IMG/VR virus record: IMGVR_UViG_3300020417_000001
Span: 1 to 43,169 of that record
Strand: one strand, 5' to 3'
Length of the DNA stretch: 43,169 nucleotides
Source: a virus
Both the position numbers and the translations under genes were made by a program. The notes under the pieces were generated by a model that was given only the letters and a program-made list of their open reading frames with translations, was not told the DNA's origin and searched no databases. Positions 23,676 to 34,402 of this stretch are shown piece by piece (positions within the stretch are counted from its first letter, which is position 1; each line of letters opens with the position of its first letter).

Positions 23676-24200
23676 ATGTGTGAACCAGTCACAGCGGCAC
23701 TAATGGCCGCACAATTCGCAATGGCGGCATATGGCCAATATCAACAAGGGCGTGCGCAGGAAGCACAGCAAAACTATGTTGCTGCTCAAAACCAAGAAAA
23801 CGCAAAGGCCGCAGAATGGCAAGCACAAGACGCTGAAGCACGCGGCGAACAAGAGCAGTTTAGACAACGCTTACAGCAAAGCCAATTAGAAGGGCAGCAA
23901 ATAAGCGCATTGGCATCTAATGGCGGCGCTATTGGCATTGGATCTTCAGGTGATCTGCTAAGTGATAGCTATATCATGGGTCAATACGACAACAATACAA
24001 TTGGTAATAACGCAGATAAAGAAGCGTATGGCTACCGCGTACAAAGCGCAAATTACACGAATGAAGCACAGCTAAACAGAATGGCGGGCAAGAACGCTAA
24101 AAAAGCAGGCATTATGAATGCTGGCACAACCTTACTGTCTGGCGCTTCGCAGTTTGGATCCACATTCCAATTTGATAACGGATCACTAGCATACAGGTAA
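23676..24200 (+). CDS. Internal virion protein (T7 gp14-like)
   Basis: 174 residues. The start MCEPVTAALMAAQFAMAAYG is the usual beginning of gp14-like proteins, with one short hydrophobic helix, followed by a long Gln/Ala-rich helix (25-80) and a Gly/Ser-rich segment SNGGAIGIGSSGDLLSDS. In T7, gp14 is ejected first and forms the outer-membrane channel. The gene precedes the gp15- and gp16-like genes, as in T7. Confidence 0.8.
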   Translation: MCEPVTAALMAAQFAMAAYGQYQQGRAQEAQQNYVAAQNQENAKAAEWQAQDAEARGEQEQFRQRLQQSQLEGQQISALASNGGAIGIGSSGDLLSDSYIMGQYDNNTIGNNADKEAYGYRVQSANYTNEAQLNRMAGKNAKKAGIMNAGTTLLSGASQFGSTFQFDNGSLAYR

Positions 24201-24204
24201 TGAA

Positions 24205-25848
24205 ATGGTAACAGTCCCAACACAAAACCAGCCTACGGTTAAGGCGCAGGCCTTACCAAGCGCACGGTACAGTACATCTGCGCCAATTGGTGCCTTTGGT
24301 GGGTATCAAGCAGATTCATTAATGAAAGGCGCTGCAGGCCTAGAAAAAGCCCGCAAGAACTTTGAATACGTTGCGCTTAAAGAAGATGAAGCCCGTGTAA
24401 AAGACCTGGATAGACAGTTCAATGAACAGCTGCGAAATATCCAATATGGTGACAATGGATATTATAACCAGCGTGGCGTTAATGCAGTAAACAGCTACCA
24501 GAACACGAATAAGCAAATAGATGATCTTTATAACAAGATGTCTAACGGCTTAACACCGCGCGTACTGGATATGTTTAAAGATGTAACACAGCGCCGCGTT
24601 GAAAGCGCCCGCCGCAGCATGATGGTTCATCGTGAACGTGAAAGCCGCGTATGGCAAAACGCAACTTCAGCTGCACGTATTGAAGACGCCTTAGAGGATG
24701 CTATCGTTAATGCAGGCAATGAAGAAGCCTTGCGCCATTCACTTGGCACTATCGAAGCAGAGTTAATAGACCGCGGTGAACGTGAAGGTATTGGCGGTGT
24801 TGCCCTTAGAGAACAGCTTGAAAACTACAGAAGCAAAGCACATGCTGGCGTTATTGGGAAGCTTCAAACATATAACGCACCATTGGCACAGCAGCATTAT
24901 GAACGCTTCAAACAGCAGATAGAGCCAAGCGAACAGATTAAGATTGAAAAAAGCCTGAAGGCACATGCTGACAAACAATACGCTGCGAATAAAGCTGATG
25001 AGATAATACAGGATGGCGGCGATATTGGTGACATGTTGACCAAAGCAAAATCCATTAAAGACGCCGACCGCCGTGAAGATATTGTTTCGCTTATCAAAGG
25101 ACACTGGAAAGACCAGGAACTAATAGAAAGCTCACGTGAAGAAGCAAAGGTTGAAGAAACCTGGCGCATCATTGAGAACAATAGAGAAGCGGGCATTTCT
25201 ATTAAAGATCAGCTTAATCTTATCCCGGCAGATCTACCGCACGATACAAAAGAAAAAATGCGCAAGTTTATCAACAATGGTGGTGAACAAACTAATTGGG
25301 ATGAGTACGAATATCTAACAAGCTTGAAGCCGGATGAGTTGGCCAAGGTTAATTTGAATGAATACGAATTAGCAGACACAGAACGAAAGCAGCTTATTAA
25401 ATTAAAGAACAGTGCAGCTGAAGGCAAAACAACCTTCACTGATATACAGGGCTATGCAAACGCCTTTCTTGATCAACACAACATTAAAAAAGAAAGACGC
25501 GGGGCATTTAAGGCACAGCTATTTTTACGCCAGGAAGAGTTTGAGCGCCGTGAAGGGCGTCCAATGACCCTGCAAGAACAAAAGCGTGAAATGCTAACAC
25601 TGATGCTGCCAACACGATTTGATCCGCAAGGCTTGCTTAACCAAGAAAAAGGCAAACTATTTGAAGTCCTGGACAAAGTGGACACAGCCGAACTTAACAA
25701 TGGCGCCACATATGAGGTTGCTAATGTACCTGAAAAATACGTGCAGCAGATTGTCGATGCTCTGGCTAAAAAAGGCGTAAGCATAACAGCCGCAAATATT
25801 GAAAGAACTTATTTAACAGCAAAACAACAAGGCTTAATACGTGAGTGA
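24205..25848 (+). CDS. Internal virion protein (T7 gp15-like)
   Basis: 547 residues, nearly all helical and hydrophilic, with a tandem of charged helices (EKARKNFEYVALKEDEARVKDLDRQF, then RRSMMVHRERESRVWQNATSAARIEDAL). YNQRGVNAVNSYQNTN near residue 92 is a conserved turn of this class. In T7, gp15 spans the periplasm as part of the ejectosome. It overlaps the giant gene by eight bases. Confidence 0.78.
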   Translation: MVTVPTQNQPTVKAQALPSARYSTSAPIGAFGGYQADSLMKGAAGLEKARKNFEYVALKEDEARVKDLDRQFNEQLRNIQYGDNGYYNQRGVNAVNSYQNTNKQIDDLYNKMSNGLTPRVLDMFKDVTQRRVESARRSMMVHRERESRVWQNATSAARIEDALEDAIVNAGNEEALRHSLGTIEAELIDRGEREGIGGVALREQLENYRSKAHAGVIGKLQTYNAPLAQQHYERFKQQIEPSEQIKIEKSLKAHADKQYAANKADEIIQDGGDIGDMLTKAKSIKDADRREDIVSLIKGHWKDQELIESSREEAKVEETWRIIENNREAGISIKDQLNLIPADLPHDTKEKMRKFINNGGEQTNWDEYEYLTSLKPDELAKVNLNEYELADTERKQLIKLKNSAAEGKTTFTDIQGYANAFLDQHNIKKERRGAFKAQLFLRQEEFERREGRPMTLQEQKREMLTLMLPTRFDPQGLLNQEKGKLFEVLDKVDTAELNNGATYEVANVPEKYVQQIVDALAKKGVSITAANIERTYLTAKQQGLIRE

Positions 25849-28800
25849 TTTAAACCCATTTATGCAGGCGGTAGGTACCGTCAATGAAGATCTTAGAAAT
25901 CCGTTTGAAGCAGCGGCTGCAGATCTTGTGAATGGTGAGAAGGCGCAGCTGTCATCAAGCATGCAGCTTGCCAAGACCGGCAGTGCAGATGATCACGCGC
26001 GTGCGCTCAAAGCTTCACAGAAAACTGGCATTCCTGTTGATGTTGTAAAAACAGACTTGAAACAAGTTGAACAGGACATTGAAGAACACGAATTTGATTA
26101 TGATGCATTGTACCAGGAAACGCCCAAAACAGCGTCATTCCTGATGAACCCAGATAATGCAGGCATAGCACATGATGATGTAGATAGCCTGACTGCATTT
26201 GAAAAAGCAGCGCAGACACTAAACACAAAAGAAGCCAATATATTCAATGAAGCTGGCGCAGTTCTCGAGAAGCAAACGGCATATCCGGCTTTATTAGCTG
26301 TTATGTACGGCGTTACAGACATTGAAACTGTTGCCGAATATTACGCTGATAGATCACGGGCATTGTCGAACGCACAGCAAAACCAGCCGCTATATATGCA
26401 GCGTTTTATGAACCGATTTGAAAATGCTGAAAGCTTCGCTGGCAAAGCTGCTGTTGCCCTAACAAGTCCACGCGCTATTGGACGAACAGCCTTTACACAA
26501 AGCCCAAACAGCATATTACCACTAGCAAGCGGCTATGCCTTCGGCAAGGTTGGCGCGGCTGGTGGCGCTACTGTTGGTTCGCTGGTTCCTGGTGCGGGCA
26601 CCGCAAGTGGTGCCGTTGTCGGCGGTGTTGGCGGGTTTGGTTTCGGTGCATTTGCTGGTGGGTCTTTTGTTGAAATCGCTGCATATGCAGATCAGAAGCT
26701 GAATGAATATGGTGTTGATCAGACAGACCCGCAACAACTTATAGAATTCTTTAATAACCCTGAAAACGCTGAAGCAATAAGTGAGTTGCGTGCAGAAGCA
26801 GAACGCAAAGGTATAACCACAGCCGCTGTTGATGCTGCATTCTCTTTAGTAGGCGGGCGTTTTCTAAGTGCAGGCAGATCCGGCGCAAAGAAGGCTGGTG
26901 ATACTGCTGCTGATATAGGCGTTGAATCTGTTGGTGAAGGCACAGCTGAAGCAGCAGGGCAGTACGCGGCAACTGGTGAGGTGGATGCAGGTGATGTGAT
27001 CTTAGAAACAGCCGCAGGTGTAGGGCAGTCTACAGGCACGGCATTTATCCAGGGCGCAAACCGTCAGGGCAAAGATGCGGTCAAAATTGTTGGCGATGAA
27101 ATCAAAAGCCTTATAAAACGTAGTGCGCAAGATGTTAATGCGGCTGAACGTGGCAATATGCTAATGGATATGTTTGCTGGCTTAAGTGAACGCGTTAAGC
27201 AGTCCAAGCTAAAAGACCGCTCACCAGAGAAACTTAAAGAGCATGTACGCAATAGCTTGGCAGGCACAGACGCAGAAACAGTTTATGTTGATAGCGATAA
27301 GTTCACTGAATACTTCCAATCCCGCGGCGATGATCCGGCCTTAATCGCTGAACAGCTTGGTATACTTCAGCAATATGAAGACGCACAGGAATCAGGTGGT
27401 GATTTGCTAATGTCACATGAAGAAGCCTTGGTTTCTTTAACACAGCTTGATGCATATGATGACCTATCGGCAGATATGCGCGTATCACCAGCGGATATGA
27501 CCTATAACGAAGCACAAGCCTTCAATGAAGAATCCCAGCTTATTTTAGAAGATTACATCGTGCATGCGCGTGAACAGGCTGACCGTGCCTTAAGCGAAGC
27601 CACATCTGAAGACCGTATTTATGAAGATGTATACAACCAGCTTATAAACACAGGCATGACCCCAGACGTAGCCAGCAAGCAAGCTACACTTCACCAGGCG
27701 TTTTACGCATCACAGGCTAAGAGAAATGGTATGGATGCATATAAGCTTTATTCTGGCCGTGAATTCAAAATACAAAGAGAGCTACCAGATAGCTTGAAAA
27801 TGCCCATAAATGAACTGGACTTCTTTGTTGATCGCTTAAAGAAATACGCGAACGGTAAATTAAAATTAGGCACAGACAATTCACCAACACTGTTGGAGTT
27901 CATTAAATCAACTGGCGGCATAAATGACAACGACCAGCTTGCAGGTGATTTAATTGGCCAGGATATAGACCGTGATGCCCAGGGGCAGTTATACCAAAAA
28001 ACAAAACGTGCAATTAAAGAGAATGACACAGCGAACCAACAAGACTTATTTAATCCAGGCAACAAGAAGCAGGGCGAAGGCCGCTTCCTGGATGACATAG
28101 CACTTGATGCCTGGGAAAAAGGTTACTTCCCCGAATTGCAAGAACGCCCCGATACATCAACATTGGTCGAAGCCATTAAAGATGAACTCAAAGGCAACGC
28201 ACGCAGATCAGACCAATCGTATATTGATGAAGCAAAGCCATATGACGATGCATTACAGCTGGCAAGCGAATTAGGCCTGGACATTGATAAATCAACTAAT
28301 AAGCAGATCAAAGACGCACTGTTCAATGCTATTGAAACTGAAGCACAGCAGAGTGAACAATCACAGCAGGGCTTAGATACTGATGACCTGATTGACAAAA
28401 TATCTGATACAGAAGAAGAAGCCCAGGCTTTAAAGGAAAAGGTCAGTAAGGTTGAAAAGGAAGAAGCTGAAACACCAGAATTTAAGGCCGAGAAGAAGCC
28501 TGCCCCCATTGAGCAGCAAGAGCGTATTGATGACTTTGGTGAAGTGCTGCATGGCGCACGCAAGCATGAGTTTGAAAAATTTAAAGATGCGTTATCTCAA
28601 GATCTTCCAGAAGATCCGTCTGATATTACAATTTCAAAATATTTCCCTATTCCGAACTATGAAGAGCTAAACAAAGCAGCTAATGGGGATATTGATTATG
28701 AGCGCATAGCAACACTCAAAGCAATACGTGACAATCTACCATCTAAGCCAAAACGCTATCAGAAGAGTTGGGCTGAAGCGATTGCTTTATACCGAGAGCT

Positions 28801-31800
28801 TGCAAACAAAATACTTGATGGTGAATTAGGCCTATATGCCGCGCAAGCTGAATTAAATAAACATGATAAGCACTACACGCATTTGAGCAAAAATGTACGC
28901 AAGATGATACTTGCGGCTGATCTGTATAAAAAGCTTGGCTACCCTTATTATATGAATGCAAAGGGCTATTCCCTTGAGGATGCAATGTTTTCTGTGTATC
29001 AGGGTGTCAAACACGATAAACCGGTTAGAAAGCACATTGTGAAGATGCCTAAACGCTTCCCGGAATACTTTGATACAGAGCAGGAAGCTCTTGACTTTAT
29101 GCGCCTTAAACTTGAAGTGGAAGCAAAGGGCGGAAATAAAAAGAAGACACGCCTGGACATATACCAGGTAACAAAGTCTGGTGAAATCATCATTGGCAAA
29201 AAAGTCGCTTCAAATAAATATATAGACCTAAAAAGTGGCTTTAAATCCTTAAAAGAAGCGCGTTTATATTTATCTGACAATGAAGATGCATTGCTCGTAA
29301 TTCTTGAAGAAAAGAAAAAAGTACCACCACAGCGCCGCAGCACGAATGACCCGCGTATTGGTGAAGACTACCGTAAAGGTGAAAGCATAACACCGGATAA
29401 GTTCGCACAAGAATTCGGCTTCAGAGGTGTTCAATTCGGCAACTACGTTGAGCAGGGACGGCGCCAAAAAGATCTTAACAATGCTTATGATGCATTACTT
29501 GACTTGGCGAATATTATTGATGTTCCTGCACGTGCAATATCGCTTAATGGTACTTTAGGCCTGGCGTTTGGCGCACGTGGTAAAGGCGGCATAAACTCGG
29601 CTGCTGCGCACTATGAACCAGATAACAAAGTTATTAACCTCACCAAGAAACATGGTGCCGGTTCGCTAGGTCACGAATGGTGGCACGCGCTTGATCACAA
29701 CATTGGTGAAAGACAAGAGGGTGGAAAGTACCTATCTGACAATCCTATTCTACGTAAATTCTCACGCAAGACGGGCAAAGAGATAACTGACTTTCCAATA
29801 CGTCCCGAAGTTGTTGATGCCTATAAAGATCTAATGAAGGCGTTGGTGCGGGAAACAGAAATATATAAACGCTCAAAAGAGCTGGATAAGAAAAGAACCA
29901 AAGATTACTGGTCAACTGATATTGAAGTTAGCGCACGCGCTTTTGAAAGCTATCTACGACACAAAGCAAAACAGAACAATGAAAGCAACGATTATCTTGC
30001 TAATGTGTTTGACAATAAAAAATCACAGGAATCTGACGAATACGCATATCTTACTGATGAAGAAATGGAAAAGGTTGCGCCTTATTTTGACAAGATCTTC
30101 CAAACATTTAAAACGCGCGAAACCAGCGAAGGCGTAGAGTTCTATCAATCTGGTAAGAAAAACATTTTCAAACCTAAAAAAGATCAAGCCAATCGCTACA
30201 GAGAATCCTTAAAAGCCTTAGAAGATGGTACAGCAAATATTGGGCGGGAAATAGTAATTGGCGATACACCTGAAGTGTATAAGATGCTTGGCGCTAATCC
30301 GTACAGCATGCGCATAAATGGATCCAAGATAAAGCGCATGCTTAATAAGCACGAAATATCTTACAAAACGTTAGAACAGCTGCCTGAAGCTTTAGCTGAT
30401 CCTATTATGGTTTTAGATTCATCCAGCCAGGATAAATCATTCGTTGTATTAACGGAGTTATTGGATGAAGCTGGCAATTCTGTGATGGCCGCAATTCACT
30501 TAGACAAGTCCGGCGAAGGCGCTGTATTAATCAATAAGATTGCAAGCGTGTATGGTAAGGATGATGCTGGCCAGTTTATCCGCTGGATAAAGCAAGGTAA
30601 AATGCTATATGCAGATAAAAAGAAAGCCTTGCAATGGTCACGATCAAACCGGCTCCAATTGCCGAAAGAAGTGACTGCTACAAGGCATAATAAAATTATA
30701 CGGAAAGAAAACTTAAAAAACAATAAGATTTTCAACCAAGACGTGCAAGGCGCTGATAATAAAGGGAAATATATTTCTTTTGAAAGTGCGTATAATTCTG
30801 AAAAGCGTGGATCAATAAAGTTTAGCGATAACACAGCCACAATCACGCTTACCGAAAAGGCAGATCTTTCAACATTTCTTCACGAAAGTGGTCACATGTT
30901 CTTGGAAACATTTATGAACTTGGCCAGCAATGACCGTGCGCCTGATGACATTAAGCGTGACAGGGATATTCTTTTAAAGTGGATGAACGTTAAAAGCATT
31001 AATGACATTGGCGTTGAACAGCATGAACAGTTTGCCCGTGGGTTTGAAGCCTATTTATTTGAGGGGAAAGCGCCAAGCATAGGTTTGCAGTCTGCCTTTG
31101 ATCGCTTTAAGGCTTGGCTCATGCGGATATATAAATCAATTAAAAGCCTTGATGTGAACTTAACTGATGAAGTGCGCGGCGTAATGGATCGTATGCTTGC
31201 GACAGATGAAGAAATAAAATACGCACAAGAGAACTTACAATTCGTACCTGATAGCAGCATTGAAGAATTGCTCAATAAAACTGAACAAAAAGAATATAGA
31301 AAGCTTGGCGAGAAAGCTACACTTGAAGCCCGCGAAAAAGCGTTAAAAGAATCCATGAAGGATATTGCACGTGAACAAAAAGCTTGGTGGAAGGATGAGA
31401 AGGCCGCGGTTAGAAAAGACGTTGAAGACCAGGTAAATCAATCGCCTGTATTCCGCGCCATACACTTCTTACAAAAAGGAAAGTATCTAGACCGCGATAC
31501 ACCTGAAGGCATAAAGCCTGTAAAGCTATCCAAGAAGATATTGATAGACCGCTACGGTGAAGAATCCTTAAAGTCTTTGCCGCGCCCTTATGTGTACTCT
31601 AACAAAGGCGGCACAAGTCCTGAAGTTATTGCGGAAATGTTTGATTTTTCTTCAGCTGACGAGCTAATGAATGCGTTGTGGAATTCTGAAAAGCGTGAAG
31701 ATGTAATCAACCGTATCACGAATGACCGTATGAAAGAGCGTCACGGTGACATGCTCAATGACGGATCATTAGAAGAAGAAGCCTTAAACGCTGTTTACAA

Positions 31801-34402
31801 TGATGAGCGTGCCAAGGTCATTGCAATGGAAATGCGTGCAATAGCGCGTCAACTTGGCGGCGATATGCCAGCGATTGATGCCCTTAAAGAAGCGGCACGT
31901 GCGACAATATCACGCATGCCAACGAATGATGCGGCAAAGTTCTCTAGGTACCATCACGCCACACGCAAAGCAGCACGTGAAGCAGGAAAAGCCCTGGGCG
32001 CAAAAGATTATGAAACAGCCGTTGAGTGGAAGCGTAAAGAGCTATTAAACCACTTTATATTTATGGAAGCGCGGGATGCATCAAAAGACATTGATAAAAT
32101 CCTGAAGCATATGTCTAAATATAAAAAACAGACAGTGCGCCAGAAAATTGAAGTTGGTTTTATGGATCAGATTGACGCAATCCTGGACAGGTTTGAATTC
32201 AGCAAAAGTGCCACACTAAAAGATGCCAAGCAATCTTTATCCGACTTTATAGCAATGCGCGAAAAAGAAGGTGAGATTGTTAGTGCCACTGACTTTGTGC
32301 GTTCTGGCCGTGGTGTTTCATATAAGATTATGCCCATGGAAGAACTGCGCGGCTTATATGATACAATTCGCAACCTGGATAAACTTGGTCGGTTAGAGCG
32401 TGATTACAAACTAGAAGGGCAGAAGATTGATGCATATGATGCCGTTGAAGCGATGGTCAACAGCATTGAAGATCTTAATAAAACAAAACTCATAACAAAG
32501 ACATTCAAGAACCTTGGCGATAAAACCAAAGAATTTGTAACTGGCATTGATAAAGAACTCACGCGCATGGAATTCATTATGAAGGCGCTTGATGGCAATG
32601 AATTGCAAGGGGTTGTTCAAAGTATACTTTTCCAACCGTTCGTAGAAGCCCAGGCACAGTCTGAAAAATTTAGCCGTGATGTTCACGACCGCTTAAAAGT
32701 TATATTTGAAGCAAACCCGAACGTTAAAAAATGGGAAACAGTATATAAGGATGAAAAGCTTGGTGTTGATTTTAAGATCAAGAATATCATCACAATTGCT
32801 TTAAATATGGGCAATGCATCAAACTATCAAAAGCTTTTGGATGGTGGCGTCAAAGGGCAGTCCTGGACTGAAGAAGATATACAGCGAATTGTATCAAAAC
32901 TCACAAAGGACGATTGGGACACGGTGCAATCTATATGGGATCTGTTTGAAGAACTGCGCCCAGGGCTTGAAAACACATTTAAAGAAATGACAAACCTAAA
33001 TATGGATGTGGTTGAACCAACGCCAGTGCAAACCCCATATGGTGTTTATAACGGCGGATATATGCCGTTGGTATATGATCGTGAAGTCACATATGAAGGA
33101 AGCAGAAACCTTGAGGGCGTATCTATCCTGGATGATAACTTTAATATTCCTTCAGTGAATAAAGGTATGACACAAACAAGATCTGACTTTGTGGCACCTT
33201 TAGAATTGAACTTCGATGACATATTGCTAACACACCTGGGTAAAACAATTCACTTCATCACACACGGAAACGTAATACGTAAGGCCAATAGATTGATCAT
33301 ACACCCAATGTTTAAGAAGGCTGTTTTAGAAACAGCTGGTGTTGATACATATAACCAATTCCGCCCCTGGCTTCAGTCCGTTGCTAAGAACAGTGTTTAT
33401 GATGCGCCGGTTGGTTTTGTTGACAAGTTCTTTAGACACTTAAGAACTGGCGTTACAACGGTATTTTTGGGCTTTTCACACGGCACAATAATGAAGCAAA
33501 CATTGGGTATAACGACCACGCAAGCCGCTATTTCACGTGGTGAAGCAACGCAGAAGAATTTTTATAAAGCTATACGTTCTTATATATCTGCACCAGGCAA
33601 AGCTTCGCAGTTTGTTTTTGAAAACTCTTTAGAAATGCAAGGCCGATTAAATAATGTAAATGCTGACTTAACCAATGTCATTAAAGCTACCGAACGCGGC
33701 CACGGGGTAATGAATGACCTTCAGCGTGTTGGCATGATGGGCATTGCATATTCACAGGTATATACAGTGGATATTCCGACATGGTTTACAGGCTATTATG
33801 AAGGCATGGATCGCTTTAACGACAAAGACCGTGCAGTTGCCTATGCAGATGCTTTGGTACGTCAAACGCAGGGTTCCGGCGCAGTAAAAGACCTGGCAAA
33901 AATTCAGCGCGGGTCTGAAGCGCAGAAAACTGTATCAACCATGTTTGGGACATATATTCTTGGCGTATTGTACCCAAGACTTCGTGAACTTGGTATAGAT
34001 GCAAGGCAGCACAAAAAATGGGGCAGGGCAGCTATAACAATAATTCCATTATTGATAATGCCTGCAATGCTTGAAGCCTTAATGTCCGGCGAACCACCTG
34101 AAGATGATGAAACATATGCAGAATGGGTTGCAACAAAAACATTGCTGTATGGCACATCGGCCGTTCCTTTCTTTGGCTCTACTGTACGTGCAGCAACGTC
34201 CGATTATTACGGAAGCGGCTTCCAGCTTTCACCAATAGAAAGCGTTGTGAATATGGGCATTAACGGTATTAAAGATTTAGAAGACGGTGAAATTGATCGT
34301 GCCTTCTTTAAAGGTATGGCGGCATCAAGCGGATTGATATTAAAGCTGCCAACCTATCATCCATACAAAACAATTGAAGAAATTTTACTTCTAGCTGAAT
34401 AA
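25841..34402 (+). CDS. Giant polyvalent ejection protein (gp16 position)
   Basis: 2853 residues, one fifth of the prophage. It starts with GTG at 25841 (AAGG upstream). N-terminal Gly/Ala hydrophobic stretch at about 225-283. An LPD1-like zincin domain lies at about 1188-1300, with H1278-EWW-H1282 after NGTLGLAFGARGKGG. A MuF-C-like domain lies at about 1468-1615 (GREIVIGDTPEVYKMLGANP, IASVYGKDD, RLQLPKEV). A second zincin lies at about 1670-1790, with H1681-ESG-H1685 and HEQFARGFEAYLFEGKAPS. Long helical middle; an LPD38-like C-terminal region with a hydrophobic helix near 2730-2750. It is probably ejected with the DNA; the domain names are from memory. Confidence 0.85.
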   Translation: MSDLNPFMQAVGTVNEDLRNPFEAAAADLVNGEKAQLSSSMQLAKTGSADDHARALKASQKTGIPVDVVKTDLKQVEQDIEEHEFDYDALYQETPKTASFLMNPDNAGIAHDDVDSLTAFEKAAQTLNTKEANIFNEAGAVLEKQTAYPALLAVMYGVTDIETVAEYYADRSRALSNAQQNQPLYMQRFMNRFENAESFAGKAAVALTSPRAIGRTAFTQSPNSILPLASGYAFGKVGAAGGATVGSLVPGAGTASGAVVGGVGGFGFGAFAGGSFVEIAAYADQKLNEYGVDQTDPQQLIEFFNNPENAEAISELRAEAERKGITTAAVDAAFSLVGGRFLSAGRSGAKKAGDTAADIGVESVGEGTAEAAGQYAATGEVDAGDVILETAAGVGQSTGTAFIQGANRQGKDAVKIVGDEIKSLIKRSAQDVNAAERGNMLMDMFAGLSERVKQSKLKDRSPEKLKEHVRNSLAGTDAETVYVDSDKFTEYFQSRGDDPALIAEQLGILQQYEDAQESGGDLLMSHEEALVSLTQLDAYDDLSADMRVSPADMTYNEAQAFNEESQLILEDYIVHAREQADRALSEATSEDRIYEDVYNQLINTGMTPDVASKQATLHQAFYASQAKRNGMDAYKLYSGREFKIQRELPDSLKMPINELDFFVDRLKKYANGKLKLGTDNSPTLLEFIKSTGGINDNDQLAGDLIGQDIDRDAQGQLYQKTKRAIKENDTANQQDLFNPGNKKQGEGRFLDDIALDAWEKGYFPELQERPDTSTLVEAIKDELKGNARRSDQSYIDEAKPYDDALQLASELGLDIDKSTNKQIKDALFNAIETEAQQSEQSQQGLDTDDLIDKISDTEEEAQALKEKVSKVEKEEAETPEFKAEKKPAPIEQQERIDDFGEVLHGARKHEFEKFKDALSQDLPEDPSDITISKYFPIPNYEELNKAANGDIDYERIATLKAIRDNLPSKPKRYQKSWAEAIALYRELANKILDGELGLYAAQAELNKHDKHYTHLSKNVRKMILAADLYKKLGYPYYMNAKGYSLEDAMFSVYQGVKHDKPVRKHIVKMPKRFPEYFDTEQEALDFMRLKLEVEAKGGNKKKTRLDIYQVTKSGEIIIGKKVASNKYIDLKSGFKSLKEARLYLSDNEDALLVILEEKKKVPPQRRSTNDPRIGEDYRKGESITPDKFAQEFGFRGVQFGNYVEQGRRQKDLNNAYDALLDLANIIDVPARAISLNGTLGLAFGARGKGGINSAAAHYEPDNKVINLTKKHGAGSLGHEWWHALDHNIGERQEGGKYLSDNPILRKFSRKTGKEITDFPIRPEVVDAYKDLMKALVRETEIYKRSKELDKKRTKDYWSTDIEVSARAFESYLRHKAKQNNESNDYLANVFDNKKSQESDEYAYLTDEEMEKVAPYFDKIFQTFKTRETSEGVEFYQSGKKNIFKPKKDQANRYRESLKALEDGTANIGREIVIGDTPEVYKMLGANPYSMRINGSKIKRMLNKHEISYKTLEQLPEALADPIMVLDSSSQDKSFVVLTELLDEAGNSVMAAIHLDKSGEGAVLINKIASVYGKDDAGQFIRWIKQGKMLYADKKKALQWSRSNRLQLPKEVTATRHNKIIRKENLKNNKIFNQDVQGADNKGKYISFESAYNSEKRGSIKFSDNTATITLTEKADLSTFLHESGHMFLETFMNLASNDRAPDDIKRDRDILLKWMNVKSINDIGVEQHEQFARGFEAYLFEGKAPSIGLQSAFDRFKAWLMRIYKSIKSLDVNLTDEVRGVMDRMLATDEEIKYAQENLQFVPDSSIEELLNKTEQKEYRKLGEKATLEAREKALKESMKDIAREQKAWWKDEKAAVRKDVEDQVNQSPVFRAIHFLQKGKYLDRDTPEGIKPVKLSKKILIDRYGEESLKSLPRPYVYSNKGGTSPEVIAEMFDFSSADELMNALWNSEKREDVINRITNDRMKERHGDMLNDGSLEEEALNAVYNDERAKVIAMEMRAIARQLGGDMPAIDALKEAARATISRMPTNDAAKFSRYHHATRKAAREAGKALGAKDYETAVEWKRKELLNHFIFMEARDASKDIDKILKHMSKYKKQTVRQKIEVGFMDQIDAILDRFEFSKSATLKDAKQSLSDFIAMREKEGEIVSATDFVRSGRGVSYKIMPMEELRGLYDTIRNLDKLGRLERDYKLEGQKIDAYDAVEAMVNSIEDLNKTKLITKTFKNLGDKTKEFVTGIDKELTRMEFIMKALDGNELQGVVQSILFQPFVEAQAQSEKFSRDVHDRLKVIFEANPNVKKWETVYKDEKLGVDFKIKNIITIALNMGNASNYQKLLDGGVKGQSWTEEDIQRIVSKLTKDDWDTVQSIWDLFEELRPGLENTFKEMTNLNMDVVEPTPVQTPYGVYNGGYMPLVYDREVTYEGSRNLEGVSILDDNFNIPSVNKGMTQTRSDFVAPLELNFDDILLTHLGKTIHFITHGNVIRKANRLIIHPMFKKAVLETAGVDTYNQFRPWLQSVAKNSVYDAPVGFVDKFFRHLRTGVTTVFLGFSHGTIMKQTLGITTTQAAISRGEATQKNFYKAIRSYISAPGKASQFVFENSLEMQGRLNNVNADLTNVIKATERGHGVMNDLQRVGMMGIAYSQVYTVDIPTWFTGYYEGMDRFNDKDRAVAYADALVRQTQGSGAVKDLAKIQRGSEAQKTVSTMFGTYILGVLYPRLRELGIDARQHKKWGRAAITIIPLLIMPAMLEALMSGEPPEDDETYAEWVATKTLLYGTSAVPFFGSTVRAATSDYYGSGFQLSPIESVVNMGINGIKDLEDGEIDRAFFKGMAASSGLILKLPTYHPYKTIEEILLLAE

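Follow-up and report, generated by a model that had tools for sequence, protein, structure and literature searches.

Phage polyvalent proteins are giant proteins encoded near virion genes that combine zincin metallopeptidases (MPTases) and LPDs with ART and PBECR domains (Iyer et al. 2017, PMC5512222). Autoprocessing by the zincins has already been proposed for the class in general, and the PBECR domains are predicted to adopt a metal-independent RNase fold in which a His of helix 1 and a C-terminal Ser/Thr are expected at the active site (PMC5512222). The main text of that study mentions neither Bordetella nor BPP and describes neither a fixed-slot ejection chassis nor a cleavage motif. CLCA_X is a published zincin-like family for which residues 700-1000 of Bbp10 from Bordetella phage BPP-1 served as a seed, a region that contains the HESGH of Bbp10 (PMC3650047). 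The polyvalent-protein class, the zincin of Bbp10 and the individual domains are known. What is added here is a chassis, a slot and a candidate cleavage site; a fixed-slot ejection protein, pairs of empty and occupied slots, and the PhixQ rule described below were not found in the literature searched, in which PMC5512222 was covered by its main text.

The giant protein analysed here is encoded in a 43,169-base virus record, the whole of which is called the window. As in the polyvalent class, the protein is very large and contains several unrelated enzymatic or LPD domains (LPD22, LPD5, LPD1/zincin-1 and MuF_C, plus a second zincin-type domain, ZN2), and its gene sits among virion genes. Bbp10 and its orthologues (Rauchvirus type) share with it the domain order LPD22-X600-slot-ZN2-C1-C2-C3, the gene order and the HESGH zincin. 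However, the slot of Bbp10 measures about 180 aa and holds PBECR1, whereas that of the window protein measures about 850-880 aa and holds LPD5-zincin-1 and MuF_C. The phrog_616 giants of Stx-type podophages (e.g. Escherichia phage phi296) also contain the LPD5-zincin-1 block, followed downstream by MuF_C, but in these proteins zincin-1 belongs to the core and the ZN2-C chassis is missing, while in the window protein zincin-1 is cargo.

Genomic setting of the giant gene

The giant gene (25841..34402; this and all other features lie on the plus strand) is one intact open reading frame with a GTG start that encodes 2853 residues, the coordinates and length given in a preceding sequence-only reading. 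The genes of the window follow the order portal, scaffold-like, capsid, two tail-tube proteins, gp13-like, T7_gp14, gp15-position protein, giant, tail fibre. Compared with the BPP-1 map, this is the arrangement of T7 and BPP-1, and it confirms the T7 gp16 position claimed in that reading. The giant is the final gene of a gp14-gp15-gp16 block, with the tail-tube genes upstream and the tail fibre downstream. Its neighbours in the block are a T7 gp14-like internal virion protein (23676..24200; Pfam T7_gp14, E 3.4e-9; PHROG internal virion protein) and a gp15-position protein (24205..25848) assigned to PHROG 10475 by its N part only. Since the window also encodes an integrase and has a repressor-like gene, the virus is probably temperate.

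The gp15-position protein has no Pfam match whatever and hence no transglycosylase domain by Pfam; the PHROG 10475 members of BPP-1 and Pseudomonas include a transglycosylase/lysozyme, which the window version seems to lack. A Pfam search of the 2853-residue protein at E<=1 likewise gave no N-terminal transglycosylase. An N-terminal transglycosylase in gp16 is a feature of the T7 branch and is absent in P22-like phages. Because no such domain was found in the giant or in its gp15-like neighbour, the giant is not classed as a T7 gp16 homologue. It resembles T7 gp16 in its position after gp14- and gp15-like genes, its large size and a hydrophobic segment near the C terminus (PMC8954989), but differs in the lack of detected homology and of the N-terminal transglycosylase, in being more than twice as long and in its effector domains. 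Its synteny makes it likely that the giant is ejected with the DNA. An unrelated podophage giant, gp69 of JC1 (4515 aa), was identified in virions by 51 unique peptides (PMC9144972). For the present chassis, neither virion proteomics nor cleavage data turned up in literature searches.

A prophage that is 99.9% identical occurs in the metagenome-assembled genome (MAG) Alphaproteobacteria ARS11 54088 (L082, 10001-18558), where the copy of the giant gene, 99% identical, is broken by a 1-nt deletion and a TGA in frame (window position 31987). These lesions may represent genuine decay or stem from the assembly. A search of the order of the MAG host for a second intact copy of the giant returned just stand-alone MuF_C proteins.

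A conserved frame around one slot

Relatives were gathered by tblastn, pattern scans and profile HMMs. A scan of viral sequences with the N part alone gave no relatives and a plain C-part scan gave one; it was an alignment query that retrieved them, and the viral set consists of the 80 best matches to a window-led alignment, not of a random sample. The chassis occurs in 13 records of named phages and over 80 viral contigs, and no fewer than 575 contigs match it. The frame LPD22–X600–[slot]–ZN2–C1–C2–C3 is common to about 97 proteins, Bbp10 among them.

In the window protein the conserved N part starts with LPD22 (25952..26224, residues 38-128; Pfam PF18834, E 1e-19) and ends with X600 (27143..28198, residues 435-786), delimited by its own profile HMM. 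Between them lies a glycine-rich, weakly hydrophobic stretch (26531..26668, residues 231-276) recognised from its sequence and weak PHROG matches. By analogy with T7 gp16 this stretch is a possible membrane-active segment; its hydropathy is under the threshold in the window protein. Within X600 a YFQ is conserved (residues 491-493 of the window protein), which is probably structural or may be a further processing site. The conserved C part downstream of ZN2, C1-C2-C3 (31271..34372, residues 1811-2844), was defined by profile HMM and contains in C3 a hydrophobic TM-like segment (34028-34084, residues 2730-2748). Hydropathy analysis places a TM-like helix in C3 in 54 of 74 relatives and in the slot in one of the 74.

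The Pfam matches above gathering scores in the window protein are LPD22, LPD5, LPD1 and MuF_C, the first two of which were absent from the sequence-only reading. The LPD38-like end that it proposed was not recovered, neither at E<=1 in the protein itself nor at E<=1e-3 in 39 C parts. These 39 C parts gave no domain in a Pfam scan, and 39 N parts gave LPD22 in 38 cases, one DUF6861 and nothing else.

Among 70 complete proteins, length is nearly constant for the N part (696±70 aa) and for the ZN2-C part (1251±37 aa), while the slot measures 439±429 aa and ranges from 15 to 2138, with borders that depend on the HMM ends. A slot of at most 110 aa is found in 24 of 85 proteins. The 58 slots examined for content hold 18 Pfam families, enzyme and toxin domains among them; they include ART-PolyVal (19 slots), PBECR5 (7), LPD3 (5), GGDEF (4), GNAT (4) and RadC (3), as well as MuF_C, PBECR3, Zeta toxin and ddrB-ParB. 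The sample was selected and the ART count gives no estimate of prevalence; in a 2022 survey, only about 3% of podoviruses had ADP-ribosyltransferases (PMC9503650). Named phages also differ in their slots, with PBECR1 in Bbp10 of BPP-1, ART in Caulobacter SR18, PBECR5 in Cobetia Carin1, LPD23 in AF and GNAT in Vibrio 1.185.O. The slot of the window protein (28199..30739, residues about 787-1633) holds LPD5–zincin-1 and MuF_C.

In the sets L173/L175/L180, L236/L241, L155/L174 and L228/L229 the C parts are 94-99% and the N parts 78-97% identical, yet the slots are unrelated or absent. At the level of sequence, these comparisons establish a fixed frame with a single slot in which cargo is swapped. 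Since ZN2 is present in essentially all of the about 97 relatives and zincin-1 in two slots, that of the window and that of L001, ZN2 is assigned to the chassis and zincin-1 and MuF_C to the cargo. Recent insertion of the slot marked by base composition was considered and is not borne out in the window gene, where the GC content is 41% in the slot, 42% in the C part and 46% in the N part.

Several relatives deserve separate mention. The contig IMGVR_UViG_3300045977_000222 encodes two chassis genes (L236 and L241) with C parts 98% identical and slots of 1007 and 134 aa. In Nostoc phage Nsp-JY18 (L162, 1-6045) the giant gene is about 12 kb long, and some 2000 residues without a Pfam match precede the ZN2-C chassis, a region that possibly contains unrecognised effectors. 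Limnohabitans phage DC33 (L164, PQ492659.1) is classed in the Inoviridae yet encodes a podovirus-type ejection protein in the corresponding gene order, and the label is likely wrong. Bbp10 (L154) and its orthologues are often annotated as 'crystallin beta/gamma motif' or lysin, yet the RNase-like PBECR1 in the Bbp10 slot exceeds the Pfam cut-off. That older annotation, which has since been propagated to phages of Nostoc, Caulobacter and sea ice, is likely misleading.

The cargo of the window protein

Cargo module 1 has an IEQ (28508..28516, residues 890-892) that is tentatively assigned as its candidate left border. It contains LPD5 (28961..29410, residues 1041-1190; Pfam PF18799, E 3e-29; AF2 pLDDT mostly >90) followed by zincin-1, a domain of the CLCA_X/LPD1 type (29399..30148, residues about 1187-1436) identified by Pfam, NCBIfam, conservation and structural matching. 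The HEWWH of zincin-1 (29672-29686, residues 1278-1282) and the HESGH of ZN2 are the sole H[EQ]xxH motifs in the protein; they lie exactly where the sequence-only reading placed them, and their conservation in relatives shows that neither arose by chance. HEWWH is retained in 150 of 150 aligned relatives and the presumed third ligand, E1362 (29924-29926), in 89 of 91. That reading had also assigned HEWWH to an LPD1-like domain. Pfam does detect LPD1 (29882-30118, residues 1348-1426, E 1e-17), but the motif lies upstream of its borders: LPD1 is the C-terminal half of zincin-1 and bears the presumed third ligand. The NCBIfam model CLCA_X (NF041907) matches residues 1172-1422 with E 1.6e-45 and 155.5 bits, under its curated cut-off of 260.

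The AF2 model of zincin-1 is good, with most blocks above 90 pLDDT. Its top structural matches by VIA-align 2 are zincins, which rank ahead of unrelated entries: anthrax lethal factor with Z 8.7 (190 aligned residues, 4.2 A), PPEP-1 with 7.1, PepO with 5.4 and IRAP with 5.3. With plain Foldseek against the PDB, neither the zincin-1 model nor that of ZN2 had a significant match.

An FYQ (30140..30148, residues 1434-1436), a putative processing site, separates zincin-1 from cargo module 2, which is formed by MuF_C, a PBECR RNase-like domain (30332..30628, residues 1498-1596). The earlier suggestion of a MuF-C-like domain between the zincins is well supported, with a match to Pfam PF18819 at E 2.5e-29 and 101.8 bits against a cut-off of 27.6. 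The predicted catalytic residues are H1504 (30350-30352), a His in 19 of 20 aligned sequences, and S1569 (30545-30547), a Ser or Thr in most aligned rows. RNase activity is predicted for MuF_C, with both expected active-site residues retained; the AF2 model has low confidence in this region. Stand-alone MuF_C proteins of about 202-218 aa are encoded in related marine alphaproteobacterial genomes (L250, 985-1638; L251; L252), and the distance between the PhixQ tripeptides around the window MuF_C, 197 aa, is close to that size. The stand-alone genes adjoin a conserved gene that resembles a replication-initiation protein and gave no Pfam match in the one case checked.

The putative zincin of the chassis

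ZN2 (30827..31207) was recognised by profile and conserved residues. It contains HESGH (30881-30895, residues 1681-1685) and a conserved downstream Glu, E1729 (31025-31027), as presumed third ligand. Among 87 non-redundant relatives the two His residues of the motif are each found in 86, and the motif Glu and E1729 in all 87. The proposal of two zincin-type domains thus holds insofar as HExxH and a distal Glu are conserved in both families. Profiles of zincin-1 and ZN2 align HExxH on HExxH with P 8e-6 to 2e-5, as against >=0.01 in five control comparisons, and the same alignment pairs E-x-x-A-R-x-F-E of zincin-1 with E-x-F-A-R-x-F-E of ZN2. From these profile alignments, the two families are distantly homologous.

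Structure prediction, which had been suggested as a check on both zinc sites, supported the zincin fold of zincin-1 but gave a different outcome for ZN2. Its model has a mean pLDDT of 86.7, and no zincin was found among the structures compared with it by Foldseek and VIA-align 2, so the fold assignment of ZN2 rests on its residues and profile similarity. A sequence search of the PDB returned nothing convincing, with the zincin of Spartan at E about 1 for the ZN2 profile. Two relatives (L191, L203) have ZN2 interrupted by roughly 200 additional residues between HExxH and the Glu motif.

The slot junction

Comparison of relatives with empty and occupied slots shows that they differ by an insert at a conserved tripeptide [L/F/Y]-x-Q, abbreviated PhixQ, and that most inserts end in a PhixQ of their own. 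In L228, which is empty, ILFQ is followed by GGAAPRG, whereas in L229 ILFQ is followed by 203 aa ending in FFQS and then by SEAAPRG. Similarly, L160 reads VLTQ and then PDTSGARG, and L166 reads VLEQ, 444 aa ending in LLRQEK, and then PDTGTARG; L221 is similar. In L155/L174 the left edge is RFDQ or RYAQ, and KLEQ stands ahead of PRG. The left YGQ of L192/L219 lies a few residues ahead of the insert, and in L165/L158 the insert is merely upstream of a common LNQ; the right-hand PhixQ is not clean in these two pairs.

For a wider tally, [LFIYMVW]xQ was counted within 30 residues before ZN2. It occurs in 94% of 84 non-redundant proteins, compared with 44±5% in shuffles and 39-44% in control windows, which rejects composition as the source of the enrichment. 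A stricter pattern, [LFY][FNYIR]Q, reaches a density at the junction that is 7-11 times that of the N part, the slot or the C part. In the window protein the junction motif is FNQ (30731..30739, residues 1631-1633). The motif is present with 15 of 18 empty and 55 of 59 filled slots, and its spacing to ZN2 varies among chassis proteins. PBECR5 modules begin 8-13 residues past a PhixQ-type motif in five of seven cases, for which the chance expectation is about 1e-6. ZN2-like domains outside the chassis are also preceded by PhixQ, namely FYQ in L002 and L085, LFQ in L096 and TYQ in L140 and L143.

Codon usage at PhixQ is mixed, so that conservation acts at the protein level; a recombination site at the nucleotide level was considered for the junction and rejected, as the codons are not conserved. 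Given the probably structural YFQ inside X600, presence of the tripeptide is not enough to identify a site.

Possible modes of action

In view of the above, we favour as the probable reading that the giant, in a BPP-1-like temperate podovirus, acts as the large ejection protein at the gp16 position and serves as a delivery chassis with one slot, whose effectors would be freed by ZN2 at PhixQ. The layout is N-chassis - PhixQ - {cargo - PhixQ}n - ZN2 - C-chassis. LPD22, the glycine-rich stretch and X600 make up the N side of the chassis, and ZN2, C1-C3 and the TM-like helix its C side. The slot accepts zero, one or several modules, and in the window protein n = 2. The giant would be packed in the head and ejected alongside the gp14- and gp15-like proteins, after which the C part may anchor it in the inner membrane while the middle enters the cytoplasm. 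The central part of T7 gp16 is located in the host cytoplasm (PMC8954989). Cleavage by ZN2 at the PhixQ junctions would then release the effectors from the DNA-translocation machinery in the manner of a polyprotein. Freed MuF_C could cut host or CRISPR RNA, and zincin-1 might cut a host protein or assist in processing. To our knowledge, no preference of zincins for Gln sites has been described, which counts against cleavage at PhixQ.

The main rival is an uncut protein with the same chassis and slot, in which ZN2 is structural or directed at the host, PhixQ acts as a flexible linker or a strand for docking at which insertions are tolerated, and the effectors act while tethered. N4 vRNAP has a zincin of the same kind and is packaged without being cut (PMC5512222), which speaks for such a tethered protein and counts against self-cleavage by ZN2. 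The occurrence of PhixQ in most empty slots also agrees with it, as does the modelling of IFNQD as a strand, in a low-confidence part of the ZN2 model. However, PhixQ is found at both edges of cargo in natural pairs, with variable spacing to ZN2 and unconserved codons, features that would be expected of a recognition site more than of a rigid structural element. Moreover, HExxH and the Glu are essentially invariant, which would be needless in a purely structural domain. We therefore regard the tethered protein as unlikely, although it deserves more weight than the alternatives that follow.

The sequence-only reading had singled out the two zincins around MuF_C as a meaningful unit, two proteases around a toxin. 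The three domains do adjoin in the window, the zincin families are distantly homologous, and both zincins occur in other giant classes as well (L002, L085). Yet ZN2 occurs with any cargo or none, zincin-1 is found in only two of the about 97 slots, and the cargo domains come apart in relatives: L001 has zincin-1 without detected MuF_C, and L083 has MuF_C without zincin-1. A dedicated trio is thus improbable. It is still harder to believe that the gene is a decaying prophage remnant with no active function, as the broken copy in the MAG prophage could suggest. The lesions in that copy may be assembly errors, whereas the window copy runs uninterrupted for 8.5 kb with all predicted active-site residues retained, and the family is abundant in phages.

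Implications

The reading with cleavage by ZN2 can be extended, more tentatively, to podophages at large. In many of them the ejection protein may be a self-cleaving polyprotein launcher, in which a zincin would read PhixQ and modules ending in PhixQ could be plugged in and freed in the host. We consider this extension possible but short of probable; if true, it would amount to a general, site-coded system for the delivery of phage effectors. The slot rule, the empty and occupied pairs and PhixQ provide the question of zincin function in polyvalent proteins with named residues. In addition, hidden injected effectors can be picked out mechanically from the slot of each BPP-1-type ejection protein, that of BPP-1 itself included.
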